Positions 2,543 through 57,965 of a stretch of DNA of 64,000 nucleotides are shown here, in pieces; positions within the stretch are counted from its first letter, which is position 1, and every line of letters starts with the position of its first letter. This DNA comes from Urechis unicinctus. Its lineage: Eukaryota; Annelida; Polychaeta; Xenopneusta; Urechidae. The stretch covers positions 52,122,514 to 52,186,513 of the forward strand of contig CM067354.1 in assembly GCA_034190875.2 (NCBI GenBank). The letters are read 5' to 3'. A program made the translations under genes and the position numbers. The notes beneath the pieces were generated by a model that did not search any database, was not told where the DNA came from, and saw only the letters and a list, made by a program, of their open reading frames with translations.

Positions 2543-2930
2543 TAACAGAACGCTTGCAATGCAGGCAACAATGCCAACGTTAGTCTAGGATCTTCGAACT
2601 ATTGTTATATTAACACAGTTAATTTTATATCATATATCATCATATCTTGTTCGGGGAACTCTAAAAATAATCAATGTGGTAAGTAGCAATATAACTCACA
2701 GAGGTTGACCATTCTGCGCGCAGGACAATATTGCCATTATATCTTGCATGCGTTTGTATACTGCCCACGAACTTTATCATTACGAACGTATCAGATGCTG
2801 TCAGGCTAGTTTCACCAATGCAATGGCATGCTTTGTCGGGGTTTCTAGAGAAATATATCTTTTTCATTTGTTTATTGTTGACAAGCCAGTTTGACAAATT
2901 TGCTGCTAGACTGCCACATATGCCGTTTCT
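2543..2930 (+). repeat. segment A, copy 1
   Basis: Matches 35,583-35,985 in the same orientation. Shared landmarks include agaacgcttgcaa at the start, a stretch around ttatattaacacagtta, ataatcaatgtggtaag, and tctagagaaatatatc near the end. Frames of 79 and 98 codons here are not preserved in the other copy. Confidence 0.8.
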
Positions 2931-4218
2931 GTGTGTAAAGCTTCCCCAGTGTGTCATTTCTAATACTTAATCTGCGAAAAACATAATATATAACCGACCG
3001 AACATCTGTTACTGGTCTGGAAGCTATTGGAATGGAATCTCCAGCAATATATTTTGCAATTTGGATTTTTCCGGACTACGGTTATGCAGGGTGACTGCAT
3101 ATAAATGAATCAGCTCTGACCCGCATCGAATTGCGGAACCCATGCACCGCCTGTTCGCGGAAAAGGAAAAGTAATTTTGAAAGCAGTTGAAAATGCTCAA
3201 ATCAAGATATGACAATATGTAATTCAATCGTAACTTTGCAACCGAGATATGAATAGCCCTGGTGCGCAATTTAATTTTACTTGTGTGCGTCTGCAGATAT
3301 CATCAAATGTCACGACCTCTTCTTCGACTCATATAATCACCTAGAGAGAGGCCGTGAATTAAGTGGCCTGTAAAACCTGAGAAACTTGCAGCACCCAAAG
3401 CAAGCCGCTCAGCAGTCAATCCTAGTCGCATCCAACAGAACGCGCGCCACATAGGAGCACTCGAACGGAAACGGCAGTGGTATTCGGCAAACTGGGCTAA
3501 TCATTGTCTTTTGTGTGGCTGGCTTGGATTAAAAAATGCCAAACATTTGTACAACGCTAGCAGATTTCAAGCGATATCGGTACAATAAAAGTTCGATTAA
3601 TTGCCACAGAAACTAAATTTGGCTATTTCCACACAAAATTACGCAGGATTCATGCTTTGTCCATCTTAAATGGCCAGCTGATTGCACCATCTGTTATGGC
3701 ATGGAACATGAAATCAGCCTGTGCAGCGCTTGGACACATAATTACTAACTTTCTAAAGCTCTACATACACCTCCATTCATCACCTAAAATTGTGAACATT
3801 TGCCACCAACGATCTGCACAGGACCAAGTTGTGCTTAAGGCATATTCAATTACCAGCGTAATCAGCCATCAATGATTTATGGAACCGAAAAGCAGCCAAC
3901 TAAATTGTGGTCAATTCATGAGGTGCATACAAATATAATTTGACATAAACAATAAGGTATAATGCACCCATTAATATTTGCGCGCAGAATCAAACGTGGA
4001 TTACGATAGGACGATAACGACGGCTGGGCATCATCTGAAGCAGTTCCGTATAGATCTTATATCAGGGTTGGGGTGGAGGCGGATGGGGGTGAGGGTTTAA
4101 TCTGGAAACGGTTTATTATGGACAGGCATCGTTTATTTGTATTACGGAGCGAATTTTAGTCCATGTCACTCTTGTTGGAGAGAGAAAACTTGCTGAGTTA
4201 AGCAGTTAAACGGATCGA
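2931..4218. other. spacer between segments A and B
   Basis: No second copy was found in the window and no gene is recognised. The only distinctive item is a G-rich run at 4,065-4,095, listed separately. Confidence 0.5.
4065..4095 (+). other. G-quadruplex-like G-rich run
   Basis: Four G runs of 3, 4, 5 and 3 bases are separated by loops of 2, 11 and 3 bases. The 11-base loop itself contains three GG or single-G steps. The surrounding sequence is AT-rich, so the run stands out. Folding is inferred from the pattern only. Confidence 0.5.
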
Positions 4219-6640
4219 TTTCCTCTTATCACGCTTTATTTTGTGTTTTATCAAAATACCAGGTTCCAAACATCTTAACAAACAGTTACATCATATGAAA
4301 GTCATGCTTTTGTCGAGCGAATACAATAGTTGCCACATGTACTTACTTTTTCAAGCTAATGCTCTCTCGATCCATTTAATGGTGGGCTAAATAATTTATT
4401 GTGGCTAAAGCTTCCCAATGTGTCATTACTCTGGTGTCCTTGCTGTCAGGGTTGTTCAATTGTGATGCTAGTCAAGCGAGGAGAGGCCTTATAAATATAT
4501 GTTATCAGATGAAGCTGAATACTGTCAGGTTTCCATTTATTGATACACTCAATATAACTCTAGGTCTAACGACTACGAAGGTTGCTGTGCTAGTTTATAT
4601 TTACCTCATTCTTTGTTTATATTAATCCATAAATATAACCTTTAATATATTTTGTAATACGTTTTCATATTATATTTCGGCTCTTTTAAACAATGTAGCA
4701 TCAGGGAACGTAATAACAAAAATATAAAACATGCGGATTTTGTATTAGGATTTGGTAATAGCTCGTGAGTTTATTCGAATTCCCACTTGGCATCCAATAA
4801 GGCAAGTATATTGAGACAGCTATAATAGTTAGATCGCCACAAAGCTGAAGTCGACATATAAGTGATATATTTAAATCCCAAATTTATTGCTGTAGGGTCT
4901 ATGATTTTGTCAGTTATGCGGCATATGGTGTAACTTTGGCTGTAAGGACTAAAAGACTGAAAACAATACGCACAAAGAATCTGAAATATCATTGCGAATG
5001 ATTTCGTGGATACCATTAAGCTGTGAATAATCCGTATATAAAAGATTATTTAAATTAACTTATTGGCCAAAGTGGGGTGCCTGAATGTCTATCAATCAAA
5101 TGCCTTATTTTGCGAAGCAAGCGTGACGCCTATTTGCAGTGAATATCACTTGTTTTGTGATATAAGATATATTTGAGCAAAATAACTTTGCCATTCAGAA
5201 ATTACGCGTTCGTTCCTTATTCTGGTATGAGTTTGGTTCTGAACATGCACAGATATTTTATTGCACTAGGTTAATATTCCATAAAAGTAGATTCCTTGGT
5301 AACTTCAATGTAGCTAAATTTTATTGCTCTAGGTTAATATTCCATAAAAGTAGATTCCTTGGTAACTTCAATGTAGCTAAATCACCCTGTCGCGTTTGTG
5401 TGGGCATAGTTGACCTCCTACAGAGGCGGAAATAGCAGTGATTGCAGTGCATCATGTTGACAAACCTTGATTGCATTAAGCTCGGACTATAATTATTCGT
5501 CTAGTTTCATGATTGACAGCACGAAATGTGCCGCTTGGAACGCTGCTTTTTGTCTGATAATAAACGTAACTGCTATATTGTAACGAATGATCTGTTATTG
5601 GTCAGTCGGTGTGTATTTACAACAACATGAAGCAGTTATGGAGCTCTGCAACCTTCAATATGCACCACAAACATCTGCAGATCAATACATGTGCCATGTC
5701 GTAGATTGCTTGACAAGTTATGCCGCTAAAATGAATGCGATCAGCTCAAGCAAAGGAACAGCAACCTATATTATCCCAGACTTACCAATGATGATTGACA
5801 ATATCAGACATTTGCACATAGGCGGTGAACCTTATTCAGCTTCAGGCAATAATAAATAACCTGTTATTATGTGAGATTAACGTTATCATGTTGCACTAAA
5901 TTGTCGCATGAGATATACAGCATCGATGTGATGGCGAATTCCCAATTATGTGATGCGGAAGGTAACCTCAGCAATGTGATGCTGCTTCTAACATCACATC
6001 ATCTTCTCAGCGTTTAACGTGTTGCAAAATGTGAGAGTGAAAACATTTCTATTCAATGTGCGTAGTCAGTACAGTGAAATGGGATGAGATACAGGAAAGC
6101 ACTTGATATCGCGAGTTCTTACAGATAATGTATAATATCGAGATGAATATATATATGTAAACCATGGATTAAAACATTTCTAAATAGGGAGTGCCACTTA
6201 GTGCATAAAATTGTTATTTATGCAATGTTATCGATGCCTAGGTGTAATTGGACGGAATGTCGGAAATTTTTCCATGTTAATAGCACATGAATCGTGACAT
6301 AGCATACCTAAACGGACACTACATTTAAGTAGTACCGTAGCTTCTATTAATCCTAGACAATAGTTTTAAGAGCAATGTGCATCAATTTCAGTCCAGAACC
6401 TTACCTTGAACCGATTTGCTTATACTGCACAGTCAATGGTCGACAATTTGTCAGAAGCATTAAGAAGCCCTCTATCGTTCTTATCGCTCAATAAACCCCT
6501 CGAGCAAATAAAGAGAATATAAGCTAATTACATGTACCGTAGGCAATGTCACATTGCATTTGCAGAGATGCATATAATAGCGGCGTTAAACGAATTGTCT
6601 CAAGGCACGGTGGTTAATACAATGCCAAATAGGTCAGCTG
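4219..6640 (+). repeat. segment B, copy 1
   Basis: Colinear with 22,350-24,870. Landmarks shared by both are gtgatgctagtcaagcga, taactctaggtctaacgact and tcatgattgacagc. Copy 1 has an extra stretch of roughly 150-280 bp around 4,650-4,930. Copy 2 has extra stretches at about 23,343-23,445 and 23,935-24,045. The 90-codon frame at 5,587-5,859 is destroyed in copy 2 by an in-frame stop and a net 10-bp deletion, so it is not a conserved gene. Confidence 0.85.
5255..5380 (+). repeat. 63-bp perfect-length tandem duplication
   Basis: Two adjacent 63-bp copies (5,255-5,317 and 5,318-5,380) differ at a single base (gcactagg versus gctctagg). The paralogous site near 23,215-23,275 has one copy only and has diverged much more, so the duplication arose after the B segments separated. 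Confidence 0.95.
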
Positions 6641-7265
6641 ACTAACCACAAATGTGGGCAATATTCTCCAAGAATCTAATTACATATTTCAGAAGCTACT
6701 TAGTTCAAGGCTACGTAGATTGCTGGAGATTTGGTTTTATTGTCGACGCAATGTTGTGAACAAACAAAATGATTTAATATGCAAAACAACGTACATAATC
6801 GTGTACACAAATCAGCGCTGCATAGTGGCTATGGTCTCCAGCATGGTCTCCAGCAAATGCTGTTGTCAGCATCGCCTAATGAATAATCTATTTAACATTT
6901 ATGTATCAATGATTCCAGTGGACGGTAAGGTGTGTTTTAATAAAAATCATATTCATGCAATTTTGGGGTAAAAAACTGGTTCGACAGTTAAAATATTTTC
7001 GCACAATACATCTATGTAGGTTGCAAATTCACAGCTTCACTAGAGGCCTTTTCGCAAATATGACATAGCCATGCAACTATAGCTATGAAGATACATTAAA
7101 TGCAGACACTGGGTTGAATGACAAATGCACTCGAAGGCAAGTTATTCACCGTACAAAGACTCCTTTGCAAATATATGAGCAGTTACTCCATCCAGACGTG
7201 GTATTCTTGTTATTAGTAAAACGTAGAATATGCTCTCCATAGAAAGGATATGACACGCTGTGATA
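6380..7265 (+). repeat. four-copy subrepeat, copy 1
   Basis: Related to 24,560-24,890, 25,355-26,060 and 37,640-37,960. All four share an aacccctcgagcaaat-like core (aaccactcgagcaaat in the second) followed by aagagaat, then gcgtcacatt or gtcacattg, ttgcctcaaggc, and a ggactaacc-like block. The longer match to 25,355-26,060 extends to a shared ggttgaatgacaaatg block near 7,112. This family predates the large units because it occurs twice within unit 2. Confidence 0.8.
6831..6854 (+). repeat. 12-bp perfect tandem duplication
   Basis: atggtctccagc occurs twice head to tail. It lies inside a 105-codon open frame that has no counterpart in the paralogous repeat copies. Confidence 0.95.
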
Positions 7266-8339
7266 GAATTATATTTGTTTCAATCAATGTCAACGTAATT
7301 ATATATTTTTAATCAATACCACCATAGATAGCCCTTTTTTGTGAGAGCTCATTGGATAGACTATCATTTACACCAGCAACGCCACCGATTATCGCTGTAC
7401 ATCTGGGTAGCAATACGCGTGTATCAAGCTCAATGGGGTCTTTTAATGTCTCTACATTATTGCTACAACATGTTATACGGTCGATCAATGTTTAATACAG
7501 TGTTTAACTACGCAATAAATTGGTCAATTGAGAACACCGAATATCCAATTAAGATTAATACACAATGATTTTTGTTATCTTTAGGCAACTTATCAAAATC
7601 ATATTTTTGTCGGATCCATGAGTGATCGAATTCGGACCCTATCTCGCTGCTAACATAGCAATGATAGTTTATGCCAGCTACACTAGGTTCAGTGCATGTA
7701 CCTTTTTTATGCTTCACTGATTTGGCCGATTAATAAAGCGATCTTAAGTAATCATTATTTTCTCATTCGTAGTGTATCTGTTATCCAATGTCCAAAACTG
7801 ACAAAAGTGTTCCTATATGCAGGCACAAATTGCAACCACCCAAACGGGAGACCCAACAAAGCAACGCATATAGCAACGCAAAACGTCATTATTGATAACG
7901 CAATAGATGCCATAACACAATGCTACCTATATAAATATATATCCTTACATCTAAATGCCCGTACGGCGGAATCCTCATAGAACAAAATTACATTTGTCTC
8001 AGCATGCATTTGAGGACCAATATTTGTATCAAAGATCATTAATAAAAGGGATACCAACTTGTTATCGTATGATCTAGATCGACACAATTACCTGCTCTAA
8101 AATACAGATACATCAAGAATTCCTATGTTTACATTTGTAGGTTGTTAATGTATCTTTTACGTTATTCTGCAATGCGTATTTGAGTCTTGACTGTGATCCA
8201 TAGCTGTAATGCATGGCAACGGTGAATTCTATATTGCAAAAATCACATACTGTTTGATACGCTGAATAAGGATCAAATAATTAACGTTGCACTGAACTGT
8301 TGACTTAGATAAATTGGTACCTACATTCCAAACTTATTA
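7266..8339. other. unassigned stretch between the subrepeat and segment C
   Basis: No gene is recognised and no clear second copy was found. Open frames of 69-94 codons overlap on both strands and show no domain pattern. Confidence 0.45.
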
Positions 8340-9560
8340 CATTGAAATGTTGCTAGTTGGTATAAAAATATATGCGTGACCCATGGATCTGAATCATTTT
8401 GGTCTTCATCAGATTCATATGCGGTTAGTAATGTACAAAATGATATTGATTCAATGTGCCGTGGTTAGTGAAATGAGATGAGATTCAAAATAACACTTGA
8501 TAATGCGAGTTCTATAAGGCTCGGATGTTCGATTACCACATACTCGTATTTAAATTATATTTGTTGCATGTAAAATAGATAATAAAATTTCTACAGGAAG
8601 CATATTGTGAGTTTCTATACATTGAGTGGTACTTACAACACAACATTGTGATATATGCAGTGGTATTTTGTTTTTAGTTAATAATTAACCCAGTCTTATG
8701 TGAACATCGAGTGCATATGTCGTTCTTGTTGCCTGACTATAAATCATGGCGTTTTTTATATGAGCGCCAAACCATTACATTTGACGCGAATTCCTAGGAT
8801 GAATGAGCATTGATTTACAAACCTCCATCGAAGTCCCAGCTACACCTACAATGCGACATTTTTCTGTTATGATAATAAATGTATAATTGTCATTAACATC
8901 TACGTAGCATTACACATATAAGATGTTGCTTGCTTAATTTATTGGCACACATAGTGTATAACAACGAATTCTTCCTTAAATGAATACACTCAATATCCCA
9001 TTATAATATATACACAATGTACTGTTACTTATTAGTTACCTTTAGTCAACTTTGAAAAACAAGTGTTTTTGGAAACATTATTGACCAAACGTATAGTTCA
9101 TACTACCAAAACAGATAAAAATAATCATCAAAATGCCTTTTTACGTGTGCACAGTCGAAAAGTACGAAAAGTGAACGCAACATGCAACTATTCTATTGAT
9201 CAGTTCAATTTCTGTGTGACACCTCTCTTATTATGCAATATTGTGGATCTACACATTGGTCGTCAACGTTTAAAGACTAACCCCGCATAACAATGCGTAC
9301 AGGATTGCGTGCTTGTGCACCATGTTTAATGATTCATATATGTGTATTCACAACAAAACCTATGACAATAAAACAAACTGCATCCCATTGTCTGACACAC
9401 AGGTATTGGGAATGGTTTTAAATTGCTGGTAGACCTGTCAATGTTATTTAGAATTCATTGAGATAACCGTGGTTATTATTGCTCTCATCCGTCACTTGAT
9501 AGTAATTACTTGTGGCGCAGTATAAAAACAAAACGCCGATCGACCTGTTTTTGGATTTTT
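8340..9560 (+). repeat. segment C, copy 1
   Basis: Colinear with 24,897-25,340 and then 26,101-28,080. In unit 2 the segment is split by about 760 bp that contains a copy of the four-copy subrepeat. Landmarks are ttgttgcatgtaaaatag, aaaccattacattt and gcattgatttac. A block at about 8,450-8,520 (gtgccgtggttag, gggatgagattca in the second copy) is also related to 6,050-6,110 and 24,210-24,270, so C and B share an older tandem ancestry. Confidence 0.8.
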
Positions 9561-10030
9561 TTTGCTTTGGTTTATTGAGGTGTGACCTCTGAAATATACA
9601 CTCATGTGCAGATGATTCGTGGCCAGAACCTACTAATTAATCTGGTGAATGGAAATAAATATTGCGTTTTTGATTATAATGAGAGATTAAATCTGGTCAC
9701 AGGCAGCTGTCAGGTATGAAACACGGCTGATGGTTCAATTATTTGCAAATGAAAGGTTTTCAAAGCGATATATTTAGTGTAATTACTTACAGAGCCAGTC
9801 TTGTTACTATCACTGTATGATACATTTTCTTATCATTGCATTTGACTTCGCTTTCTATTGTTCGAAAACAATATCAACTAGGGCATCAAATGTTCCACGT
9901 ACCGATTTTCAAGACACGATATCAACAGCTGTTGAGAGTAGCAAAACATTTTGGACTGCGCTGGAGTGGTCAATATATGTTCCATGGCGTTGTTGGGAAC
10001 CGCATTAAGTTTATATATAGTCAGTGCTGA
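9280..10030 (+). repeat. three-copy block at the C/D junction, copy 1
   Basis: Related to 27,830-28,660 and 39,610-40,340. Shared features include aaactgcatcccattgtc, a gaatggttttaaattgc block, cgccgatcgacctgttt, and a core at 9,925-9,975 around agtagcaaaacattttgg. Frames through these blocks are shifted by 1-bp indels between copies. One is at gttattta(g)a..., another in gctgt(t)gagagtag of the third copy. The hydrophobic and Trp-rich peptides they encode are therefore not conserved products. Confidence 0.8.
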
Positions 10031-10199
10031 ACATGTCGATTTGTAAAAGTTGCAGTTAATGTTTTAGTTTTGAATCTACCGGGTGTTTTATGGCTATAGT
10101 CGATGTATTTAACAAATACCCACATGGCTTGATAAATTGATAATGACGGAGCTTCCAGGGGCCAAATCATTATTCATTTAAAAAAGCGTTATGACTCGT

Positions 10200-13100
10200 G
10201 AGCAGGATGCAAACGCATAATCTATGCACACAGCATTTGCATGCACGCGCCTGGCACATCCGAAACTTGAACTTTAGGCTCATGTTTTTACTCACCTTAA
10301 GTACGCATATGTTACATTTAAAGTAGCAAAGTTGCGTTCATATAAGTAAAAATACGACACTGACTATAAAATTCCATCCGCAAGCCTGCAATTGCAATTA
10401 ACGTTCAATTAAAGTAAATCATGACAAATCTTCAGGGAATTTTCGAGCAGCAAATCACCATTTACCGCTATACAACGCTAGAATCGGTGATCCTTCGGGT
10501 TTTGCACAAAGTGATAAACCCAGACTACGACCAAAAACTATCATGCGTAGCACCATACATTAAGGCACTTCTCTTAGGGAAGCAGTCTGTAATGTGAATT
10601 TTGCTTGTATATCATATCCTTTCTACTCTTATTCTACTCAATCATCAAGGTACATGTGTTTTGTCAGGGCATTCAGGAGATTCCACACAGCGGTAGAAAT
10701 TACTGACTCCACACATCACTTGAATATGTGTGGTTTCTACACATTAGTTTGCAAATCACGCTTCTGTATATTGCAGATGTTGTTGTTATTGATGCTGATT
10801 ATTTATACCGCTTAGGCCAGAACTAATCAAAGGGTTATGAATAACAGATGAACGCACAGGTATATACATTATGAATGATTGGAAACTTCACTTAGCTATT
10901 CCATTTATATGCCAATAGTAATCATATCGGTTTCTTATCATGGTGTAAACATGGTGCGCGTGTCTCTGTATCATTGAAAAAAATCGTACTTATGCAGTTT
11001 TGACTCACCTCAGCGTCGTTCTGATGCCATTTGCCATTCAACTAGTCACCACATGTTAAGTGTCTATTCACATGTAAAGGTCACTTGGTCTAAATCAATC
11101 CATTATCACGAAAGTCATGGTAGATTAACCTGCAAATCTGTAGGCTTAGAACATCTGTTCATCGCCTACAAACGTGATGTGCCCTGATAGTCCCGGATGC
11201 AGTTATAAATAGCTGTCATTATCCCGTTAAAATCATCACTACAAATGCTCTGTACAAGCTCGCTGGGATACATTGCGTCAAACTTAGCACTTAAGAACTT
11301 GAATATATGGAGGATAGTTGACAATCATATCTTGATTTACAACGATAATGCTTGCATGGTTTGTATTCAAGTGGACCCTTTTCAATGGAATATTCTGTTA
11401 TAAAATCTTCTGAAAGTCTGGCGTATCAATGAGGTCATGATAGGATGAGCAGCCAAATTAATAGCAAAAACAGGCAATATGAACGCATTATTAGTGTCTG
11501 TATTTTAATTCAACCAGTTAAATATTACAGCACTCATTCAATGTTTCATTCGAAGGAGAGTTTTATATAATGTCATATATATTGATTAAAACTGTTCATA
11601 TTCATTACATCGACGAAAATGGATTGAGAGCCAGATTCCTCGCGTCTGCTAATGCTTGTTCTGTTGTAGCACAACGAGTGGTTTGTTCGTATGCTGAATC
11701 CAGGCGAGCAGAAGCAACGTAATTTCCAAAACCTGCTGACAATCTGACGGCCAATGGGTGAATAACGACATGAAGGTTCTCCGGCGATCAATAATAGATC
11801 ATTAATCATTTCTGTTTGCAGCAAATCGACAATCCCGAAAAGCTGCGCTCGCTATTTAAAAAAAATAACCCACAAACGTTTCAATCGCTTAAATACGACA
11901 TACAAATTTAACCTGATAATATTCAATTTGAATTACGTCCGTTGCATGTGAACGTTTCATCGACATATCGATTCAATATTTTGCCCATCAAAGCAGCAGC
12001 GTCCCCAAAAACCGTCAGCTGTTCGTGAAGCAGCAGGATGACTAAAATGCATAATGATATTCTGCACCACAACGACGCAGCCGCCAAGACACTAGATATT
12101 CAATGTGGTGAATAAATTCAATTATTATGACTATTGTTACCATCTGGCTCGTGAGTTAGTGGCCTTATTGATAGCTTACAACAATATAGATTACACGAAA
12201 TAGCCAACGACAAAAGTAATTAAAGCGTAATATGGAGATCACGCCCTCGTTGTGCTCAAGCTGTTAGTAGTTTATGACATATCCATCACTTTAACGGTTA
12301 TTTACAATGCTATTATTGACATGAAAGCACACTTCACTGCTGACTATTAATATAATGCTCACATTCATATGTCGTGGACTCCATCAGGACCAATATGAAC
12401 TACTCATATTTGCAAATTATGGCCGCAAACCCAGAATAACATAACCAATTAAAACCAGTAGGTTTCCATTGTACTACTGCTGCTAATGATTGAAGAAACC
12501 ACTCCGCCGTAAATTGTCATCAAGAACCACATCGAATGGTGATTGCATGTTGACAATCCATGGGACATTTTTATGTGTCTCTCGCCATGTTCGTAACCTA
12601 CCATTATACTGCATTGTAGTGATGCCATGGTGCTTGACTAATGGGCGTATTGATATAATTCATACTTGCGGAACTGTCGTCCGGATACTGAAAGAAAATG
12701 ATAGATTCATCATAGTACAATAGAAATCATTTGAGACATTGCATTTTGGGCAATTCAGATATGAATATCGTGTGCTTAGCAACATGCAGAACGTTAAAGT
12801 CCTGTTAGTTCTTTTGCTATGTATGCTTCACTGGAGATCTTGCTGGCCACACCCCACAGTATTTATGGGGATAATTGTGTGTGGTTTTAAAATTGCATGG
12901 TGTAAGCTGTTGAGGCAGTTAAAAAAAGGATCTCAGTGTTAATACGATGTATGTAGCAGTTTATCGCATATTGTGTTCGCAGAACAAAGACAATCATTTT
13001 TATGACATACACTCTAAGCTTAGTTCTGTCGGTACCGGATCTTTGTAAGTAGTAAATAATGCATGGGCAAAGCAGCGTAACTAAGCAAAGGCCTTTAAGG

Positions 13101-13712
13101 GTCACGTAAAAAGGCGTTGCCATGTCCAAACAACCTCAATAAGCCATTTTGACAAAAGGAAACACGGAATCCAGTGATTACTCTAACGCTACTTGGCCAA
13201 CATGAAAACGATATAACTCAATATAACCAGCGTGATATGTCAAATCCGTACAATCTAGGATAATTTATAACCAATGCATCGTTCACTGCATACTGTAAAA
13301 CAGATCATAGCAAGGAAGTTATCACTGTCTATTCATGCATAGAGGTATATGATCTGGAAGCTTTTCCACACTTTGATTTTGCTTATTTGGGCACGTGATT
13401 TTCCGAAGTTACCCAAAAACGCATCCAGTGAAATATTTACTGGCATGAGAGGTTTATTGCGAGGAACGTTGACATTATCACTCGAGTCATTGTTGCTCTA
13501 AATGGAAGGGGAATTAATTCGGCCCCTGCTTTCTTTGCGTTGTTGAGATGCACACTGCACAAACGGATTTTAATATTGATTTTAGAATCGTTCACATTTC
13601 ATGACGTAATAGATGCTCATGACAAAGTCAATCGGATATAAAGCTGAGCGATTGAAGTTCAAACTGTATGGTTTAAGCAAAGCTAACCATTGGTCTGTTG
13701 TCCTTGAGATAA
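10200..13712 (+). repeat. segment D, copy 1
   Basis: Colinear over its whole length with 28,945-32,818. Particularly well-kept tracts are 10,452-10,540 against 29,203-29,290 (around cgctagaatcggtgatcc) and about 12,200-12,260 against 31,198-31,263 (around gtaatatggagatcac). The segment ends at a shared gtctgttgtccttgag / gcctgttgtccttgag block. Open frames, including the 83-codon minus-strand frame at 11,573-11,824, are not retained in the second copy. Confidence 0.85.
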
Positions 13713-13740
13713 GGCGAGTGTATAGATGTATTTATTAAAT

Positions 13741-13998
13741 ATTATAATGTTCTATGTCATCATTTACGTGGTAAATAAGGGAATTTATAGTTTACTAGTG
13801 CGTCGCATAAACGACCGAACAATCAATTTCATTGATTCGGATGTCTGAGATAGTTGCGGTAATTATAATATTACAATGTACTTTGTCATCAATTACGTGG
13901 TAAATAACTGGAAAGAAAAGTTTGAGTATACTATTGCTTCTCATAAACGACATAACAATCAGTTTCATTAGGTTAGGATATCTTAGAGTTACCGAATG
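13741..13998 (+). repeat. diverged tandem duplication, period about 129 bp
   Basis: Two adjacent copies share tgtcatcatttacgtggtaa / tgtcatcaattacgtggtaa, then cataaacga, then aacaatca.tttcatt. The gtcat landmark lies at 13,756 and 13,885. Segment E in unit 3 has one copy (about 42,308-42,425), whose first part resembles the first copy and whose end resembles the end of the second. Confidence 0.8.
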
Positions 13999-16327: not shown

Positions 16328-16439
<112 letters not shown>

Positions 16440-16469
16440 TTATATATTCGGCCCCCAATTAAGCAGTCA

Positions 16470-20060
<3,591 letters not shown>

Positions 20061-20074
20061 CGATAGTAGCCATT

Positions 20075-24870: not shown

Positions 24871-24890
24871 ATTACATATTGCAGGAGCTA
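24560..24890 (+). repeat. four-copy subrepeat, copy 2
   Basis: The second member of the family described at 6,380. It contains aaccactcgagcaaataaag, gtcacattgcg and ttgcctcaaggc in the same order. Confidence 0.75.
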
Positions 24891-24896
24891 CTTATT

Positions 24897-25340: not shown

Positions 25341-25354
25341 ACTGAATCGTCGAT

Positions 25355-26060: not shown

Positions 26061-26100
26061 TGAACGGAAAGCTTTCTGTAAAAACGTAATTTCGCAAATA

Positions 26101-37960: not shown

Positions 37961-38204
37961 ATATCGGCGACTTTTCACTTGCATCATTTAAGAGAGGATC
38001 TGTGCTGATGTAATAAAGTTCTTCAATTAAATAAGACCCAGTATCATTTTATTTTCCCGTATAATGTAGAAGAACCGGAGTACAACCACAATGATAAGAC
38101 TGTGGCCAAAACAATGTTGTCAACTTAATGACATCACGGTAATTCTACCATGTCACAGATAATCCCAAGGCAAATTTTACAACACGATCATTGTTCACGA
38201 GTTC

Positions 38205-44855: not shown

Positions 44856-46849
44856 TATAACATTTATATATGGTGCACATCATTTCCTTCGTCGATAGAT
44901 ATCTTGGCATAAAGTTATCCAGCTTGCCTCACAACTTCTCTCAATGTATATTCATTGGAAAGCGCCATCACTTCTGTTAGGGAAAAACATACCAGTTTAA
45001 ACGGCTCACGGCATGTCCTATATAACTAAATGTAAATTAATGAGGACTTATGTCTGCGTAGTTTCTATTACAAGTGAGAGCCAATCACCAGGCTTAATTT
45101 GATTAAATGACCAATAATATCAGCAGTAACTGGAAGAGGATATTTTGTCGAGGCTTAAGTTATGTTTATCTCCACCCGCAATTACTGCTCGAATCTAGTG
45201 CTGCTATAAGGCGGCACTAACGGCATTCTATACCTCTTGCGTTCATTCTGCCTATTCAACAACCGGTTCATTGTCACCAACCCGGCTGCTCTGCTATCTC
45301 TGTTTAGGCCAATTTATAAAAAGTTACTAGTCAACGAAATTAAATTATCAATATGGAATAACAAAGGCCTCTTTGCTAGGTGCATACATTATCCATACAC
45401 AGAACGCGTAGCGAAAACACAGAGAGTGCTAAGCAAATCCTCGGTCGTTGGTTGAATAGAATAAGGTTGGTCCAAGTGTACAGGATTCCTCATTCAAAAT
45501 TGTAAGCACTACCTTGCAGATTTTTCCGTACTGTAATGGCGGGCTATCGTTTCCGCAATTGATTCTTAGATTCAATTCACTCTGTAAAGAAATAAGTTGA
45601 CTCATGTACTACTGTACCAGCTTTGCATCACTAGTGGGAATGTACGCTATACACATATGATCAAAACAAGATTGATCGTGGATAATATAATAGAGAGCAG
45701 ATTGCATTAGAAGTGATGCTGATCAAATTGTTGCAGGGCATGAAGTCAGTCGTCTCTCAACGTATGCTGCAAACAGGTGATGATTGTATGGCCAAATATT
45801 ATGCGCGAATAGTTTTACCGCCATCTGTTGCCTCAGGAAGTCAACGCAAATGTCAGTAGATGCCTTATTTAGGGCAATGTACGAGACACAATATATGCAT
45901 ATTTGTGCAACGATAATTCGGATGCAGCCAGATTAATATTGGCGCTGTCAAGGGGATATTGTGACCTGATCATTTTCGAAAACGTAACATTTAGCCGTGC
46001 CCGCAAGTGATATCAAAATCTCTATTTGCTCAAATAAATGCTGCATTTACGTGTGAGAATGTTTATTTGGCGTGTTAACAACATCCAAACATCAGTTCAC
46101 GACGATATGTCAATGGTATGAATGAAAAGAGCGGAGGTTATAGTCACTTCTGTTAGAGTTTAAATGAAAATCCTGCTCTGTGGGTAGATTCGGGCATAAC
46201 CACATTAAAAAACCGATTACCATTATAACCGAAAAAGATATGCATTGAACTTCGTTCCGATCATAACAAAATGAGATGCCACAGGTGGTGCACCTTGATG
46301 ATGGGTTCGTTCACCATGTTGGTTTGATGTGCGGTATTATGTCAATAAACATTATTTACCCTACGTGGAAGCCCAATAACAATACTTCATTCAGTTAATC
46401 TTTTTATGCGCGGTTGCTATCGCCTTTTTGTTGATCATAACTTCTAGCAACTGTAATTATCATGCAGCTAGTGCTTCTGCATGGGCCACGATTTGTGTAA
46501 CCAATATCAATATCAAAGCAGAATGTCGTAGTAAAATATATCAGAAAGCTACTGAATGCCCCCAATGGTTTAGAGACGCAAACGACTGACGAGTTGATGT
46601 GTGTGAAAATGTAAGGTGTATAACTAACCAATATATAAAAGAAAAGTACTCTGATTACAACTTCTTTCCTTAGTAACGAGTGTCCAAATGCTTATGTGTT
46701 ATGAACTTGCAACGACTACATGTCCTAGGGATAAATTCTACCACTGCAAGCAATAATGCATAGCAATATGTATCTTGACGGGGCTTGCTAGCAACAACTG
46801 TTTTTATGGTCTAGTATATATCATCCCTTTTCAAATCGTCGCCAATTCA
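44856..46849. other. spacer between segments E and F in unit 3
   Basis: In unit 1 only the (AT)52 run and about 35 bp separate E from F, so nearly 2 kb here is either inserted in unit 3 or lost from unit 1. No gene recognised. The 72-codon frame at 45,237-45,455 has no visible domain. Confidence 0.5.
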
Positions 46850-49440
<2,591 letters not shown>

Positions 49441-49939
49441 ACAGAATACTATATTTTGGCTATTATCATCTGTATTTCATACGGTATGCAGAAGAGCATT
49501 TGCTTTGGGGCACATCTTGTCTAAAACCCGTTGAGTTCTAGTTTATAAAGCTAATTTATGAATATGGTATTGTATTGCTTATGGTTTTCATGTTTTTCTG
49601 TTAGGTCTGAAATATGCACAATTGCGAACAAGGGACGTGTTTTCGTTTCTCAGCTGCACTTTGGTAGCGCTACTTATATGCTTATTATACAGTCAGCAGA
49701 CTTATGCACCTCTGGCTGATTCTATTGGACGTTCCCCAGGTAGGGCGGTCAAACGCTGCGCCGATTTTGTTTGGACAAGCCATTTTTATGCCGTTTAGGG
49801 CTCAGATGTAACTGGCTGCCGACGGCGAGCGAATAAACGGCAGACTTTGCTGTTTGAATATGTTGTAGATAAAGATTAGTTCTTTCATATGATACCAAAT
49901 TCAATCATATAGGCGAATGGGAATAAAGCGTAAATATTA

Positions 49940-49971
49940 CCCGAAAATGGCAAAATGTCGTCATTTTCGGG
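49940..49971. repeat. 10-bp stem hairpin
   Basis: cccgaaaatg at 49,940-49,949 pairs perfectly with cattttcggg at 49,962-49,971 around a 12-base loop. It lies just left of the larger palindrome. Confidence 0.85.
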
Positions 49972-49995
49972 GCCCAAAATATCGTGGCGGGATTT

Positions 49996-50297
49996 ATATG
50001 GTTGACAGAAAATCGTCGTACGGGCTTAATATTTATCAGAATCATATTTAAAGGGCAGAATATTGAAGAAAAATGAAAACGATATTCTGATCCGAGTGAG
50101 TGGCATTGAAAACGATATTTAAAAGCTGTAAAATCCGTGGTTTTCTGCTTTAAATCCGAATAACTCGCCGGTATCTTTACAAATTCACCCCACTCACTCG
50201 GCATCGTGAAGACGAGACTGCCCCTCCTACAATGGCTTTTACAGCTTTTTGATTGGTTAAATATTAAGCCCGTAGCCCTCCGACGAACCAACCATAT
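49996..50297. mobile_element. imperfect foldback palindrome, MITE-like
   Basis: Three perfect inverted blocks share the same centre at 50,146.5: 9 bp (49,996-50,004 with 50,289-50,297), 14 bp (50,021-50,034 with 50,259-50,272) and 12 bp (50,092-50,103 with 50,190-50,201). A fourth pair, aaaagctgtaaaa at 50,121 and its complement at 50,237, is off-centre. Exact concentricity of three separate blocks argues for one palindromic element and not chance. No target-site duplication was seen. A 131-codon minus-strand frame (49,905-50,300) runs across it and is probably a by-product, though it is the longest non-microsatellite frame in this island. Confidence 0.55.
50251..50256 (-). promoter_or_regulatory. 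inverted CCAAT box candidate
   Basis: gattgg (CCAATC on the minus strand) lies about 170 bp upstream of a candidate initiator ATG at 50,425 whose context is gtaATGG. It is a short motif, so the call is weak and rests on its position. Confidence 0.2.
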
Positions 50298-50424
50298 CAC
50301 GAGCAGTTGAAAGCTAGTCCGCGCGAAATCCTTTTCGACGCGATCATTAGCAAAGCACGCTGCCAGCTTGTCGTCAAACGAATTTTCTGCTATTTACAAC
50401 TTATTAAGGTATTCCAAATTAGTA

Positions 50425-50458
50425 ATGGCTTCTGCAGCAAGTGTGCAAGTTTCTTATG
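50425..50458 (+). CDS. candidate first exon (hypothetical, very short)
   Basis: An ATG with purine at -3 and G at +4 opens a short frame reading MASAASVQVSY, followed by G|GTGAAT, a possible splice donor after 50,458. The frame itself closes at a stop a few codons beyond 50,510. If spliced from 50,458 to the acceptor at 51,315, the reading frame would join in phase with the open frame at 51,318-51,656. This is an inference from phase and motif matches only. A second possible start at 50,799 competes with it. Confidence 0.2.
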
Positions 50459-50795
50459 GTGAATTATTTATATATTTATGTAATAAAATAAGATCGTCGG
50501 TTGTATATGTAACAATGTAACGCCTCCATGACCATATTTAGAAGATTTTAAGTTGGCGGCATTGCACGCCGGGGGCACTTATTCTACCAAACTGGTTTAA
50601 CAATTGTTTTTGTGAAATGTGTTCAAAAATAATCATTGTTAATGTAGAATCATTCATCACTGAGGTTGGTTCGAAAAAGATTATGAGTTTTTTGGGTGTT
50701 TATTTTGGTTTGTAACAAGTTCAGAATTTTAAAAAATCCTGACCCAGTAATCCCCCCACCCGCCTTGCTTGCCAACGCCCGATGCGTGCATTTTA

Positions 50796-50805
50796 AAGAT
50801 GGCGG
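50796..50805 (+). promoter_or_regulatory. YY1-like / initiator ATG motif in CG-rich patch
   Basis: aagatggcgg matches the well-known animal YY1-type core, which in TATA-less promoters overlaps the start codon. Here the ATG (50,799) opens a 15-codon frame beginning MAGLIPVAKR. The 90 bp around it is the most CG-rich non-repeat sequence in the window. There is a possible donor at tgc|gtgtga, about 50,840. Confidence 0.35.
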
Positions 50806-51315
50806 GTCTCATCCCCGTGGCGAAGCGGGAGCAGTCTTGCGTGTGATGTCCGTTTTCGTTTGGAATAGATACGGTGGCGGATTTTAACATATAATCACAG
50901 TAATGTAACATTTCAGCATACAACCAAGACAGCTGTTTGTTATATACGATGGTTGGGGTGCATATGGCACTACTTATCCCATCTCCGGTCAGACGGTGAT
51001 ATAAAACATGTCTACTCAGACGTGTAGGGCTATGCTTATACAAACGCATGACATGGTCCTAAAAGATGGGATATTAATGTAGCGTCCACTATGTTGTGAA
51101 ATGTTTACACTGTTCTATAATCATATGTGCTTCATTCCAATTTTGTACTTATTTGAGGTCAAGTCAAAGACACATTCAATAGTATATTTGTAGATGTACA
51201 TAGTGAAAGCAGTCTAAAAACTTGACAAAGACTGCAAAAATTCTGTTCCATGCTGCGTTGTATTGATCCTAATATTATTTTCCCACATATTACTTTTCTA
51301 ACTCAGCATTTACAG

Positions 51316-51656
51316 TCTTGCACAGACACTTAGATTTAGTTAAGGTATGTGAACCCCTGTACCCCCAAAAGTGTGATTTGAGTGAGCCCCAATATCTACC
51401 TCGCTGCAAGAGCATAGGTATTACAGAAAATGATATAGTTGCCACAAACCATGAGAAAATGTCAACCATGCTTCTCCCTGCAAGAGATCTGACAAATCGA
51501 CATGTGTTTGAAATTTTCAACTACCTACAAAACCACAAACATTGCCACAATATCTTCTCGGATTTCGTCTTTGGTCGTTTTGCAGTTAAGCCTTGCCCCC
51601 ATCTTCAACGTTGTGGACCAAAGCCGTTCGTAAAACTCAAGCTATGCAGAAAATAA
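51316..51656 (+). CDS. candidate internal exon or coding remnant, unknown product
   Basis: This is the most protein-like frame in the window: about 112 codons, open from the splice-acceptor-like tttacag at 51,309-51,315 to TAA at 51,654-51,656. A branch-point-like ctaac lies at 51,298-51,302 with pyrimidines around it. There is no ATG near its start, so it would be an internal exon. The peptide is balanced in composition. It has a polar N-terminal third with spaced Cys, a central amphipathic stretch (LTNRHVFEIFNYLQNH) and a basic Cys-containing end (CGPKPFVKLKLCRK). I do not recognise the family. A strong donor-like aag|gtatgt at 51,345 would cut the exon short if used. Protein-like sequence continues in another frame after 51,640, which suggests either a second splice or a frameshift, that is, a pseudogene. 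Confidence 0.35.
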
Positions 51657-51778
51657 GAGGAAAACAAGCCAAATTTCAGATGTTATGGTGTTTGATCTAC
51701 CTTAGAATAAGGCAAATGCAGTCAAAACAAATGCTGAAGAGAGGGATGTTTGTGCAGGGGGCTCATCAAATACCTTAA
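51640..51778 (+). pseudogene. possible shifted-frame continuation of the 51,316 frame
   Basis: Reading in the frame of 51,593-51,778, the peptide after about 51,640 is basic and helical-looking (KIRGKQAKFQML, then YLRIRQMQSKQMLKRG), ending FVQGAHQIP at TAA 51,776-51,778. It follows the end of the first frame with no gap. One indel or a tiny intron near 51,640-51,656 would join the two. The first half of this second frame overlaps the first frame and is probably a shadow. Confidence 0.25.
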
Positions 51779-53142
51779 GATCGATCACCAAGCCAACAGC
51801 AGTCACAACAAAATTTGTACACAACACAAAAATTTTGCCATTGGTTGAATGCAATTTTTATATTATTTGCTTATAAATGTCTCTATAATAGAAAGATAAA
51901 TGTTGGTGCAGATGTGTGTCAACCAAATGTGAGCACAAATTTGTCAGGTTATTTTTTTGGGTGGAAATTCCCCTGCACTAATTCTCAATAATTTAAGCGG
52001 GTACACATAGTAAATGGTTAAGGATTGACACTTAAAGCTTCACAAGTTGCATTTTCAATGTGTATTTATGCAGTGTATAAGCTGTTCCTATTATTTGCAA
52101 AGTATCAAAGGGGTATGAGTAATATTTTTTACACAATCAATGTTTTTGTCAATTTTTCCCCACAAAATTTCCAGCAAAAATATTACCGATGCCTGACCTT
52201 AATATGGCCTCAATATACATAAATGGAGCAATTAAGTTATGAAAACATTCCCTCTTGACAATAACAGCATGCTGCACTGCATACATGAGTTTTAAGACTC
52301 ATGGATGGGGTGTTTTGGGTGAAAAATAGCTCTTTACCATCAATAAAGCCAAAACAAATTGCGGAATATTTTCATGACATACCTCCTTCCAAGAGCTCTC
52401 ATCTAATAACTGGGTCCAAATAAATGATGCAAAACTTCCTTATGATACAACTGGATGTTAACTTATTAATAACTTTTAGTTTTAGGGTGAAACAGCCAAT
52501 ATTTTTTCCAATATGAGCAAAAGTTTACCACATATTGTAAAAATCCTTTTAAAAAGTTAGATTTTTGGTCATTGAACGATATTTAATATAGAAAGTAGTA
52601 TTATAGTGGGAATAAATTGGTATAAGGCCTTACAAACTAGTACTTTTAAGGTCCACATGGGTGTTATTAATCTCAGTTGATCAAATAACTTTTTTCATAA
52701 TTCAGCATTGAATTATGGGCATTCAAAGTAGACCTATAATCGAAAAAATGGACCGGACACGGCGAAAAAAACACAAACACAAGACACAAAATACCATTTT
52801 CCACAGTCCGTAAATCCTAAATTCAATTTAACCATAGAGTTGTATGTTTTTAATTTGTCTAAGGTGCTCCCAAACATGCCATTTAGTATGAAACATTGGT
52901 CTATAATGATCTAAAGTACTGAAACATTGAATGTCACATGCTGTGAGTGGTGGTGGGAGTGATGGAGGAGGATGCAGGATAAAAAAACCAAATGTCAAAT
53001 CAATCAACGTCGCCTTTGGCACTCATGCCCATGTCACCGCCTGCTCTTGTGCTATCAGCATAGGTTAACACCTAAGGCCATTTCCGTACGTGCATAATGA
53101 GGCTGCGTTGCTTTGAACATTTCTCTCCACACATGGCTAGTT
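51779..53142. other. AT-rich 3' part of the insertion
   Basis: Long A and T runs and several aataaa sequences (for example 52,342-52,347) are compatible with a 3' untranslated region or intron. A G-rich tract of gtggtgggagtgatgg type is at about 52,930-52,975. No coding frame stands out. Confidence 0.4.
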
Positions 53143-54085
53143 TAGCGACGAATATGGTACACAGGGGTGCTGCAAGATACTAATTCCCATGTTATTCATA
53201 TCGTATTTTACCGTCGGGCGGTATCATATGTGTCTCGGACATTACGTTATTATTCGAACGATAAACGTTGTAATGGTGATCTTTGTTTATGTGTAGACCA
53301 CGAACGTAGGCTCTTATTATGTTGCTTCCTGTCCGGTTGTTTGTTCTATTAGGTCATCATTGCCACAATGTCAATTAGTTCATAGTATGACAGATAGAAT
53401 AATTACTTAACAAAAGTAATATCCCTATAGAAGACTGAAGCATATGTGTAATGCAAAGCTCATGGGCCGCATCGATATGGTATGACGCGATGCTGACTAT
53501 TTGACTAGTGAACTGCGGCGGTAATATATCGCTAGCTGACAGAGAGATTCATAGGGCTGTGTAACGCAGCCATAATTGTGACCGGTTTTTTAGTTTATTT
53601 TCTGTAATTATTCATGTTTTAAGTGCCTGAGCCTGAAGGTTCATATTTAAACTGGCCGGCCCCTGGCGCTAGTGACGGACGGCTCTTTAGTCGGTGCTAA
53701 ACATGTGTTAATATCGAACAATATGTGCTTGGGGTACGTTAAAGCCGTGACAAATGTATCTGGCATTACAAGTATAAGATCAGTCGTGGTGGAGCCTACA
53801 ATCACTGTATGTGCATCTTTTAATTCATGGATTATGCAGCCGAATTAAAGTTGCTGATATTATAACAATAATAATGTATTGATTTTTACAGCGCCATATT
53901 ACAAACACGGTTTCCTTGCGCTGTTGCAACAAATTGTGGCTCCGAAAGTTGTATTTATATGCTGAAGGGCACATAAATGTACACAACTAAATTAATTGAC
54001 GACCAAGCATAATGGAGCAAGGTACCAATTAGGACGATAAGTGTAGTGGTGCTGATCTTCCTACTCAGCAAACTGCGAAAGTAGC
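53143..54085 (+). repeat. segment F, copy 2, right part
   Basis: Continues the match to 19,370-20,060 (agtttattttctgtaatt, ctctttagtcgg, cagtcgtggtgga). About 215 bp at 53,295-53,510 is extra relative to unit 1 and contains one copy of a small local repeat. Confidence 0.85.
53311..53377 (+). repeat. local repeat, copy 1 (copy 2 at 54,086-54,154)
   Basis: Both share gttgcttcctgt, gtttgtt and a tcatcattgc block followed by atg(t/c)ca. Both copies sit in material that unit 1 lacks at the same places. Confidence 0.75.
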
Positions 54086-54154
54086 CTCATAATGAGTGTT
54101 GCTTCCTGTTCTGTGGTTTGTTATATTTAGTCATCATTGCAAACATGCCATTTA

Positions 54155-55676
54155 GATGGTATAATATGTAAGAAATGTATGGCACGAATATTGAGAACCA
54201 ATTTAAATAAATGAATAACAGTACCCCCACTCGCATTTAGAAACTAATTACCATTACATGCTATCGTGTTTAATGCTTCTACCATATTCACAGATTAATC
54301 TAGCGACACAGAGTTATGGTTGCTAGATAAGTTACTCTTAATAGCTGGGGTATCTTTACAGTTAGGTGCATATTGCCTGGAGAGATATCCCAACAATTAC
54401 TGCTGAAATGTTACGTTAATACGTGACGGTCTGACAAGCGTTGGTATTAGATCGAGATATCCGAATTCGTTACTTTCTTCAGTATATAGTGACTGGATAC
54501 ATCTGAGGCAGATATGCGTAATAATGGATTATTAAACGTGACTTACCTGTAAGTGATGGTTGACAAATTCTCCTTCATTTCCAAGTTAAATGCCACATGG
54601 CGCTTCAAATCAAGCCTTGTACTTGGCATGCACTAGACATATGTTTATGGAAGTATAAGTCATAAGATTTGTTCTTGATGATGATGGAATACTGTCTTTG
54701 TGTGTATGACTTAATTACCATTTTCAAATTTGGAGTGCCTTTTGACGCGTGGTGTCGATATGCAACGAGGAGGTCCAATGGAATATTAAACAATGCTCAC
54801 CCGTAAGTTGATGTTTGATGTATATTCTACTTCCTCAGCTAATCATGAGAGATCAAGCACCCGCCTGATTACCAACCCTTTTGCTGTTACTTCTTCTCAC
54901 ACGGTCTAGCTTTAAAGAATGATCTTCTGATGCCAACATGCTCTCTCGCTTGAACGCTTGGATGGGAAAGTAGAATATAGTGGGTCAATGATGAGTGCAA
55001 TTGAAAGTAGTAATATCAGTGGGTCAGTCGTTCCATACAAGCAGTCAATTGAACATCTGATAAAGTAAGATGATTATGCAAATTGCAGCATATATATAGA
55101 GACGATTCAGATGGCTATTGCATCACACAGCAAAGGAAATAATATAAATTGAATTGACGCTGCATAGTTTCCAGTAACTTCGAGTATTTAATATTTATTC
55201 CAGAATCATCGGATGTTAGTAATAGTATCGCCAATCTACATAGCGTTGTGAGAATTCGATGTAACTGAACCCGTATTCATCAATATTCCAACAGCACACT
55301 TATTCTGCAAATGTACCATGAGTCACCAAGTAGCTAAGGCGACATGGATTGATTAATGTGGCAATATAAGTCCCTGTATTATGTGGCTTTGTTTGATTGA
55401 TGTATGCAGTTTAATGATTGATTGCGTCAGATGAACACATGTACCTACGCAATATGTGCACTCATTTACCTTTTTTTGTGAACCATTGAGGGCAGTTTAA
55501 CAGAGAGCGCAGTAACCAATGCAATAGAAACAACTAGCAACGCAATCATACATTGGCTGCGTAAAATCATTTATTGCATTGTTACAACAAAAACAGAATA
55601 TGGTCACACTGTAACGCCAAACATATGTCATATTTAACATTACGAAATAATAATATCATGCTTCTCAAACAACTGT
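54155..55676. other. extra DNA between F and G in unit 3
   Basis: In unit 1, F passes directly into G at about 20,065. This 1.5 kb has no copy elsewhere and no recognised gene. Confidence 0.5.
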
Positions 55677-55960
55677 GTCATGTTCATCAAGATATGTGTA
55701 CCTATTTTGAGCATGAGACATACGAATATACGAAGTACGTTGACGGACAATTAAAGCTATTTCAAATAATATAAACACATCTAACATTGACCGTTTATTG
55801 TATAAGACAATATGAATATAATTGTCCATAAAACGGCCTACCGCTATGCAAAATAGGCAATGTACAATCAAACCGGGCAATTATTTTCCCCTGGAAGAAC
55901 TGTGTACACATAATTCCATTTTCGATTGGTACAGACTATAAATGGAATAGTTTAAAAATA
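55677..55960 (+). repeat. segment G, copy 2, left part
   Basis: Matches 20,075-20,365 (aagatatgtgtaccta, gtataagacaatatgaat, acacataattccat). Confidence 0.85.
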
Positions 55961-56834
55961 TGGACCGTTCAGGTGATCGTCTATAAGGGAGTCTAATCTC
56001 GGCAGACGTATCTGACGGATATGTTTGAATTCCTAAATTAGGCTCATGTCTAGTTTTGCGTATCCCTGAATGTGCTATCGACCACATTCTATTGTTATTC
56101 GTCATGATACTGTTACTATGTTACTCGTCCAGAGACCGAAGAAATGGGTCAATAATTCCAATTTTACAACCACTTGTTATCTCATATTATCGACCCACTT
56201 AAAGCGCACCACCCTTGAGTACACGCAGTGTAATCGAAACATAATGTCACACAGCCAGACAAAAGGCAGATTTACACGTAGAGTATTGTGTATTTGTAAA
56301 CAAAAATCGGACAATTCATGATAATCGTAGACTGGATTTATGGCGGTGAGCAAAACCAGAAAAAGCATCGAAATGAGCGTTATAGGCCTGTAAATAATGA
56401 TTAAGCCTACATAGCCCTTGGCGATGCTGTTGTAAAATCTGCCTGATCATGCATATCAATTGGCTTGTTATCGCATGTTGGAAGAATGGTGTTACTGATC
56501 CACCATTGTTTCCGTTCCAAATTTTGTGCGATACAAAAACCTTATTAGTTCATGAGACATGTGATATGATAAACCATACCAGTACTTAAATACCTGCATA
56601 AAATGTAACGTCTTCTATATGTTATAGGATATGTCCCATTATACAATGCAACTGATTGAGCTTGGATTCACTTCACATATTCATTTGATTACGTAAATCA
56701 TTTACCGAAACATCTATTACCTACCTACTCCCGAAAATAAGGCGTCCGTTGAAAAGCTGCTGTACTGCTGAGTTGACTTCCTTGCATCGATCCTGTAACA
56801 TCCGCACGGATCGGATTCTGTATTGGGTTTGATT
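55961..56834. other. insertion within segment G of unit 3
   Basis: Absent from unit 1. The part at 56,378-56,515 resembles 59,037-59,185 (gttata.gcc.gtaaat, then a tgatcatg.at block and c(a/g)cg..gttgg), which suggests another diverged dispersed repeat. Confidence 0.5.
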
Positions 56835-57965
56835 ATCTAAAAATGCACAGGGAATCATATATTCCGCAAGAGTGCGACGCAATGTTGATTGATGAAACTG
56901 ATGCAGCATTGGAACCTAGAAGATTGAACAATGTGCTACAGACCTGTCATGCATTGTTCCTCTCCCCAGTAAGCGTATAAATGTGATGGAGGCAGCAGTA
57001 CAGTCGCAGTAGGATAGTGATGGGGGCGAGTTTTGATATATTTGTCATTTAATCAATCAATCAATCTTAGCCTATAATTTCAATCATTCAGAACTCTGAC
57101 CATGCGGATATTAACCATGCGGATATTAAATTCAACGCAAAATATTATTTAAAATGAATTTTCATAGCTTACCATGGTGCATTTGCAATGTCAGCACTCT
57201 TTCGTGACTAAATGTACCATTCTCTACACAAACGTCCCTACGAATAGTACTGATAGCAGCAGGTATGGGAATAGGCTGTGCCTCGCACATTTTGAGCACC
57301 CAGTGGAGGTTGTTTGATACTCCGATTTACCATATTATGTTTATAACATATTTCATTTCACTAATGGCGTGGGATCGAAATATACTCAATATCGATTTGG
57401 TGAATAGCAACAAATATATTTTATCTATGATGCGAGAAATCAATCCCAATAGACAAATTTAGTTTTGAACGAACATTATCTGGGCGGTATGCACATGGCG
57501 TATTTCTGCAGAGAAATACAACAGATGCAGTTTTATTTATTTACACATACACTCACTTATTTGCTATACTCGTTCATTAAAACGCTGTGTTTGTCAGTTT
57601 TAAAACTCAAAACCAACGTATTGGTAGACGCACTACTCAAGCGCCGGACATGTTACATCATTCGTAATATGTTTGTGAGCCGTGTTCTTGTGCTTAAAAC
57701 AATGCAATCGTACTTCAGCTTTTCAACAGAGGTGTGTTATGCGCCCCGATAAGCTCTGGTCTGATGTTCAATTGTGTTATTTCTAGAATCAGTTGACACT
57801 TCATGACTTGGCGCATCCACGCGGTAAGCGTTTGCGGCGGTCCAAATAATGTGTTGTATACAATGTGTGTAATAGTATTGTCTACACAACAAATATGATT
57901 ACTCATTGATATTGAACCTAAGATAATTGATCATCGGTCAAATGCCGTCCGGCATGCTGTCATTC
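56835..57965 (+). repeat. segment G, copy 2, right part
   Basis: Matches 20,378-21,450, beginning tctaaaaat and ending tcggtcaaatgcc.gtccggca. Includes a 15-bp perfect tandem duplication (accatgcggatatta twice, 57,099-57,128) that unit 1 lacks. Confidence 0.85.

Follow-up and report, generated by a model that had tools for sequence, protein, structure and literature searches.

Local clusters of duplicated DNA are commonly ascribed to selection on a gene within them, and gene clusters typically expand locally, in large units and in both orientations. Segmental duplications are usually defined as copies of 1 kb or more whose identity is 90% or higher, and pericentromeric or heterochromatic zones gather them in other animals. 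In imprinted microRNA megaclusters, non-coding units are repeated at a single place; macrosatellites are arrays of homogeneous kilobase units set head to tail, and piRNA clusters are usually rich in fragments of dispersed transposons. Published work treats the macrosatellites DXZ4, FIRRE and ICCE, which are large, locus-specific non-coding repeat units (PMC6985041), piRNA clusters, which are large non-coding loci (PMC10588112, PMC6128900), and imprinted microRNA megaclusters (PMC6346411).

We analysed a stretch of 64 kb, hereafter the window, from chromosome C13 of Urechis unicinctus (C13:52122514-52186513), within a searched genome of 1.19 Gb in 926 contigs. No COX1 match was obtained, and myosin exons mark the genome as eukaryotic and probably animal. 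The window probably belongs, in a reading that includes neutral decay and that we favour with some reserve, to a segmental-duplication domain that is confined to one locus and spans at least 1.25 Mb (C13 ~51.38-52.64 Mb). Like intrachromosomal segmental duplications, or low-copy repeats, the domain consists of kilobase-scale local blocks, direct and inverted, lying nearly on one chromosome and nested in time; unlike them, most copies in the window are only about 78% identical, and the scanned parts yielded no gene. The usual cut-off is reached by flank pairs of 7.2, 3.3 and 3.0 kb (92.3-93.8%), whereas the window pairs stand at 78-80%. On the pattern of its copies we would file the domain under intrachromosomal segmental duplication, with the window pairs falling below the 90% identity generally applied.

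The other systems resemble the locus in part. As in macrosatellites, the units are large and locus-specific and no gene was found in them; however, they measure 10-22 kb, are strongly diverged and differently truncated, and alternate in orientation in the wider domain. A macrosatellite was therefore rejected, unit pairs of ~78-80% identity with these truncations and orientations not forming a homogeneous head-to-tail array. Imprinted microRNA megaclusters share with the locus repeated units without a detected gene at one place, but here hairpins were not in excess, and wherever at least two copies were alignable none was retained in all of them. Like piRNA clusters, the locus is large and without a detected gene; in contrast to them, only two of five local queries hit dispersed sequence (pieces X, over bases 6-288, and Y, over ~250 bases; see below), while the window and its flank contain two larger dispersed elements (49741-52913 and a left-flank retrotransposon). 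No description of such a domain was recognised in those parts of the literature returned by a weak, keyword-level search made without the species name.

Comparison of the window with itself by BLAST, after masking of microsatellites, gave 56 off-diagonal matches at E ≤ 1e-4, all 56 of them direct, as compared with no off-diagonal pair and one row, a 30-bp self-palindrome, in a Markov-shuffled control; ten extra shuffles again produced no off-diagonal pair and one palindrome row. Chaining of these matches delimits three units, all on the forward strand. U1 (2546-21439), defined by self-BLAST and chaining, is the fullest copy in the window, with segment A at ~4.2-13.7 kb and segment B at ~13.7-21.4 kb. 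U2 (22345-32816), placed by chaining to U1, comprises only segment A, the first half of the unit, and U3 (35584-57963), placed in the same way, consists of a partial A (35.6-40.8 kb) and then B (42.3-58.0 kb), with a mobile element within. At E ≤ 1e-10, one collinear chain takes in 13 of 15 U1-U2 matches (mean identity 78.4%), another 16 of 18 U1-U3 matches (79.8%) and a third four of five U2-U3 matches (79.9%), confirming that the window holds three diverged, collinear, direct units that are ~78-80% identical. The first-pass annotation had proposed, from the letters alone, three macro-units whose segments recur directly and in the same order, and had predicted diagonal tracks at about 18, 28-36 and 12 kb. 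Direct recurrence and order held, and the main tracks were found at offsets of 16.6-19.0 kb (4213-13708 against 22345-32816), 28.4-36.6 kb (13749-21439 against 42315-57963) and 11.0-12.3 kb (25331-28672 against 37639-40350). The three diverged units stand too, sharpened by the finding that U2 is A only and that U3 joins a partial A to B and a mobile element.

A second copy exists inside the window for 51% of its length, and within 264 kb (window plus flanks) for 74%; by unit, the fraction with a copy within 264 kb is 87% for U1, 99% for U2 and 65% for U3. In this 264-kb count the in-window pairs comprise 45 direct and no inverted ones. For pairs at 70-88% identity that are no shorter than 300 bp, ungapped aligned bases give a mean K2P distance of 0.17 and a transition/transversion ratio of 0.87. 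U1 carries an AT microsatellite (17975-18246) where the homologous place in U3 has AT and TG microsatellites (48155-48364), a difference that is a sign of divergence after duplication. Base composition is even, with GC between 0.34 and 0.40 per 2 kb. TRF found nothing in the window beyond microsatellites and repeats of roughly two copies, with no long satellite array, and on this result a centromeric satellite array was rejected for the window.

Whole-genome DNA searches placed the copies of all three unit queries at one locus. Segment A (9287-13708, forward strand; 11 of 11 candidates scored) gave 40 matches, all at C13 51.47-52.16 Mb and in both orientations, which by eye group into about ten places. 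Segment B1 (14774-15546, forward strand; 9 of 9 candidates) gave 13 matches, all at C13 51.49-52.46 Mb, and segment B2 (55229-57531, forward strand; 25 of 25 candidates, with local BLAST in addition) gave 36, all at C13 51.48-52.64 Mb; the B2 copies that have diverged furthest retain mainly 55232-55483 and about 56326-56553, a core of ~250 bp. A further copy of the unit, U0, lies upstream of the window at 52.026-52.040 Mb. The repeat thus continues outside the window, over 51.47-52.64 Mb for A, B1 and B2, as had been anticipated, and the proposal of repeated duplication of an intergenic region gains support from this. A dispersed transposon does not fit these segments, as 40/40, 13/13 and 36/36 matches are on C13 within ~1.2 Mb; the search passes over very common words, so that confinement is meant at that sensitivity.

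Two pieces from the left flank extend the picture. Piece X (L025:2001-6400), picked as a control, has copies at 51.635-51.639, 51.719-51.721 and 51.754-51.757 Mb, and its best 40 of 5711 candidates yielded at least 55 rows, 35 of them off C13, with a dispersed repeat over its first 288 bases (6-288). For piece Y (L020:5001-9000), the best 40 of 77 candidates yielded at least 69 matches, including 54 in the domain at 51.38-52.11 Mb; the remaining listed matches are seven short ones on other contigs, ~250 bases of Y hitting dispersed sequence, and eight in another Y-family island on C13, at a distance of 17 Mb (C13:35115865-35140570; 8 of the 69 listed). As scoring covered 40 of 5711 candidates for X and 40 of 77 for Y, both lists are lower bounds. 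Two control pieces of 600 bp, from C3:40.0 Mb and C13:20.0 Mb, proved to be dispersed repeats with copies on many chromosomes, indicating that the search does detect dispersed copies where they are present; being only two, and both dispersed, they do not serve as single-copy controls for confinement. The latter piece (C13:20000001-20000600) is a very abundant dispersed repeat, tandem at many places, with 228 matches and several per place.

Orientation is organized in blocks. The 157 mapped C13 matches form eight runs with seven switches, against a permuted mean of 78 and a minimum of 55 in 2000 permutations, a contrast that is overstated because neighbouring pieces of one copy are not independent. 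This map retains all A, B1 and B2 rows, but drops 41 of the 55 X rows (35 off C13 and six self-inverse microsatellite rows) and 15 of the 69 Y rows (seven off C13 and eight at C13:35.1 Mb); the self-inverse piece of X is largely AT microsatellite and was discarded as a candidate. Among the matches listed, the order X-Y-A in block direction, read off the map by eye, occurs at all four X places, and B1 and B2 come after A in several of these blocks. Estimated from match positions, X and X are ~83 kb apart in one pair, and X and B2 ~90 and 124 kb apart in two others. From this arrangement, U1-U3 look like a secondary multiplication of the A-B part inside a larger macro-unit.

The youngest copies seen are in the right flank. 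The end of U3 and the sequence that follows it (53343-63969) recur there inverted at ~120.6-130.8 kb and direct at ~144.9-154.3 kb, in window numbering. Newer flank copies reach 93-95% identity and include an inverted 7.2-kb pair at 93.8%; further flank pairs measure 3.3 kb at 93.1% and 3.0 kb at 92.3%. Copy identities thus range from ~65% to ~95%, indicating that duplication has been long-running and continued more recently. Duplication at this one domain is local and repeated, both direct and inverted, and both old and more recent.

Part of the extra length of U3 is due to a young dispersed mobile element of ~3.17 kb (49741-52913), copies of which are up to 98-99% identical and lie on many chromosomes, a large number of them sharing both ends. 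Its six frames gave no Pfam family, and no terminal inverted repeat or target duplication was recognised. The left flank contains a LINE-type retrotransposon, with Pfam matches in L021 and L022 to RVT_1 (E 2.2e-26) and Exo_endo_phos (1.1e-4); in L021 (window numbering -25240 to -21492) it shows open frames of 224, 220 and 826 codons. Further out, L028 (-98861 to -97885) has two overlapping open frames of 147 and 235 codons, which we take to resemble a YqaJ-type exonuclease. Runs of N, either assembly gaps or withheld letters, occupy 64001-68500 (4500 bases), 132243-140068 (7826) and -42134 to -39635 (2500). The first begins exactly where the window ends, and another sits between the arms of a 94% inverted pair; the window itself is free of N, and therefore no N run separates U1, U2 and U3.

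We examined the duplicated DNA for coding sequence with two codon tests. No excess of third-position changes at p < 0.001 appeared in any of 1111 aligned open segments (at least 25 codons, copies at most 90% identical), in a test whose simulated power is 58% at 100 codons and omega 0.1, and 10% at omega 0.3. A stronger synonymous/nonsynonymous test of 1142 segments (copies at most 96% identical) gave 45, 11 and 1 at p < 0.05, 0.01 and 0.001; three column-shuffled controls, of 999-1017 tests each, gave 35-44, 3-12 and 0-2. In simulations of this test at omega 0.1, exons of 25, 40, 60 and 100 codons reach p < 0.001 in 9, 33, 61 and 91% of cases, and at omega 0.3 in 2-35%. With this power, strongly conserved exons of 60 codons or more are unlikely in the duplicated part, and short or fast-evolving exons are compatible with both tests. 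Frames of at least 20 codons that are open in five or more A copies number 19, a weak excess over the 11.3 ± 2.5 found in 20 shuffles. The earlier statement that no frame survives between copies is thus upheld by the codon tests, within their limited power, and qualified by this weak excess.

A six-frame Pfam scan, with X at stops, covered window positions 1-4300, 4300-17900, 18250-22400, 32800-37700, 49400-53200 and 57900-62200; in the flanks it covered 77.3 of the 80 kb before the window (all but 2.7 kb of mostly N at the end of L023) and the 40 kb after it. No Pfam family was found in six frames of window 4300-22400 (without 17901-18249). Over all scanned stretches the scan returned the left-flank retrotransposon, and every other name it gave stood at E 0.007 or weaker, the single match in the 40 kb right of the window being a weak RVT_1 (E 0.021). 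Glyco_hydro_71 (0.0073), LRRC37AB_C (0.016) and KSHV_K1 (0.037) were taken for chance matches. Detection of the retrotransposon domains indicates that the scan is able to find a coding domain.

Searches for RNA genes were likewise negative. The window scan found no tRNA, and the window and L009-L032 contained no Rfam match at gathering level; below threshold (E ≤ 0.5), mir-297 on both strands at 33.05-33.12 kb and STnc560 at 9452-9600 in the window were dismissed as simple sequence or chance. Hairpins resembling miRNA precursors occupy 22 and 16 loci on the two strands of the window; with 15-20 loci per strand in each of four Markov sequences, they are not in excess. A few are retained in one or two copies (for instance 20481-20560, in two of three), none in every copy where at least two are alignable. 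A miRNA or structured-RNA cluster was accordingly rejected, as there were no recurrent conserved hairpins and Rfam gave nothing at gathering level over the window and L009-L032. The annotation's suggestion of a non-coding RNA cluster gained no support from these scans; a piRNA or lncRNA locus is a separate alternative, considered below. No over-represented short motif could be separated from AT-rich simple sequence and the duplication itself.

Islands of 90-96% identity in a background of ~78% number 156, against 67-85 in column-shuffled alignments, each pair being counted from both sides in real and shuffled data alike. The positions of conserved stretches were compared in six disjoint copy pairings, giving rho values of 0.21, 0.27, 0.13, 0.24, 0.11 and -0.52 (p = 0.09, 0.02, 0.33, 0.13, 0.39 and 0.02, respectively). 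Conserved positions are thus little shared between disjoint copy pairs, only one of the six comparisons being positive at p 0.02, which is what one would see if most islands were due to gene conversion and uneven mutation and not to constraint common to the copies. Only one of 44 island folds lies beyond z -3, giving no sign of structured RNA in the conserved islands. The excess of islands and the excess of open frames both go beyond a uniform neutral model; gene conversion or uneven mutation could be the source of both, and constraint may act on some of the duplicated DNA.

The domain might instead hold genes of one family in tandem, whose exons are very short or evolve fast, such as those of small secreted peptides, the repeats being introns and very long non-coding spacers. 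Large units that expand locally in both orientations are the usual look of a gene cluster, the 19 frames open across A copies exceed their shuffled controls, Pfam is blind to families outside its collection, and most exons that are short or evolve fast escape the codon tests. We nevertheless consider a gene family unlikely, since the synonymous/nonsynonymous test behaves as do column shuffles, the third-position excess is absent, window 4300-22400 (without 17901-18249) has no Pfam family, and the scanned flanks offer only the retrotransposon and sub-cut-off names over 77.3 kb on the left and the weak RVT_1 match over 40 kb on the right. Copying for an RNA output, as in a piRNA-producing or lncRNA locus kept as a functional non-coding domain, would suit a large domain on a single chromosome that has been duplicated repeatedly and in which no gene was detected, as well as the ~250-bp core retained in the B2 copies that have diverged furthest. 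Against it, the conservation islands are mostly pair-specific and not unusually structured, and neither Rfam matches at gathering level (window and L009-L032) nor a hairpin excess were found, which makes such a locus distinctly improbable in our judgement.

The repeated, alternating-orientation duplication with no gene found would also agree with a pericentromeric or otherwise heterochromatic duplication zone of C13, to which we give little credence: the window is without a satellite array, its GC content is even, and lying at 52 of 79.6 Mb tells neither way. An assembly artefact, whether uncollapsed haplotypes or misjoined copies, is highly improbable. The N runs of 2500, 4500 and 7826 bases within 264 kb, of which one separates the arms of the 94% inverted pair, mean that blocks adjoining them could be wrongly oriented; yet no N lies between U1, U2 and U3, and copies at 78% are too diverged for alleles. 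The annotation had named uncollapsed haplotypes as an outcome that would overturn it, and this objection fails because the ~78% copies stand in series in one contig, with outside copies inverted relative to them. Neither this nor its pericentromeric, sex-limited and germline-limited readings received positive support; C13 measures 79.6 Mb, next to 77.6 Mb for C3 and 75.0 Mb for C15.

We therefore return to a locus-confined segmental-duplication domain that has grown by unequal exchange and inverted duplication and is decaying nearly neutrally, the explanation we think probable, though by no means secure. As the pattern of copies suggests, already similar stretches would have undergone unequal exchange and inverted duplication to give new copies, and each added copy would ease the next exchange. 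Large inversions would have set the blocks of alternating orientation. The A-B part was itself multiplied again, as U1-U3. Most of the DNA of the domain would be without coding sequence and would decay nearly neutrally, in which case persistence of the array would need neither a gene nor a present function. It is quite unlikely, by our estimate, that this is instead a gene-free functional region of at least 1.25 Mb, duplicated in alternating orientation, whose macro-units are retained for a role in RNA or chromatin, be it as a piRNA or lncRNA locus or as a satellite-free, centromere-like domain. A domain of more than 1 Mb that has been duplicating from ~65% to 95% identity without a detectable gene is a test case for whether such growth can proceed by recombination alone or reflects the copying of an unseen RNA or chromatin function.
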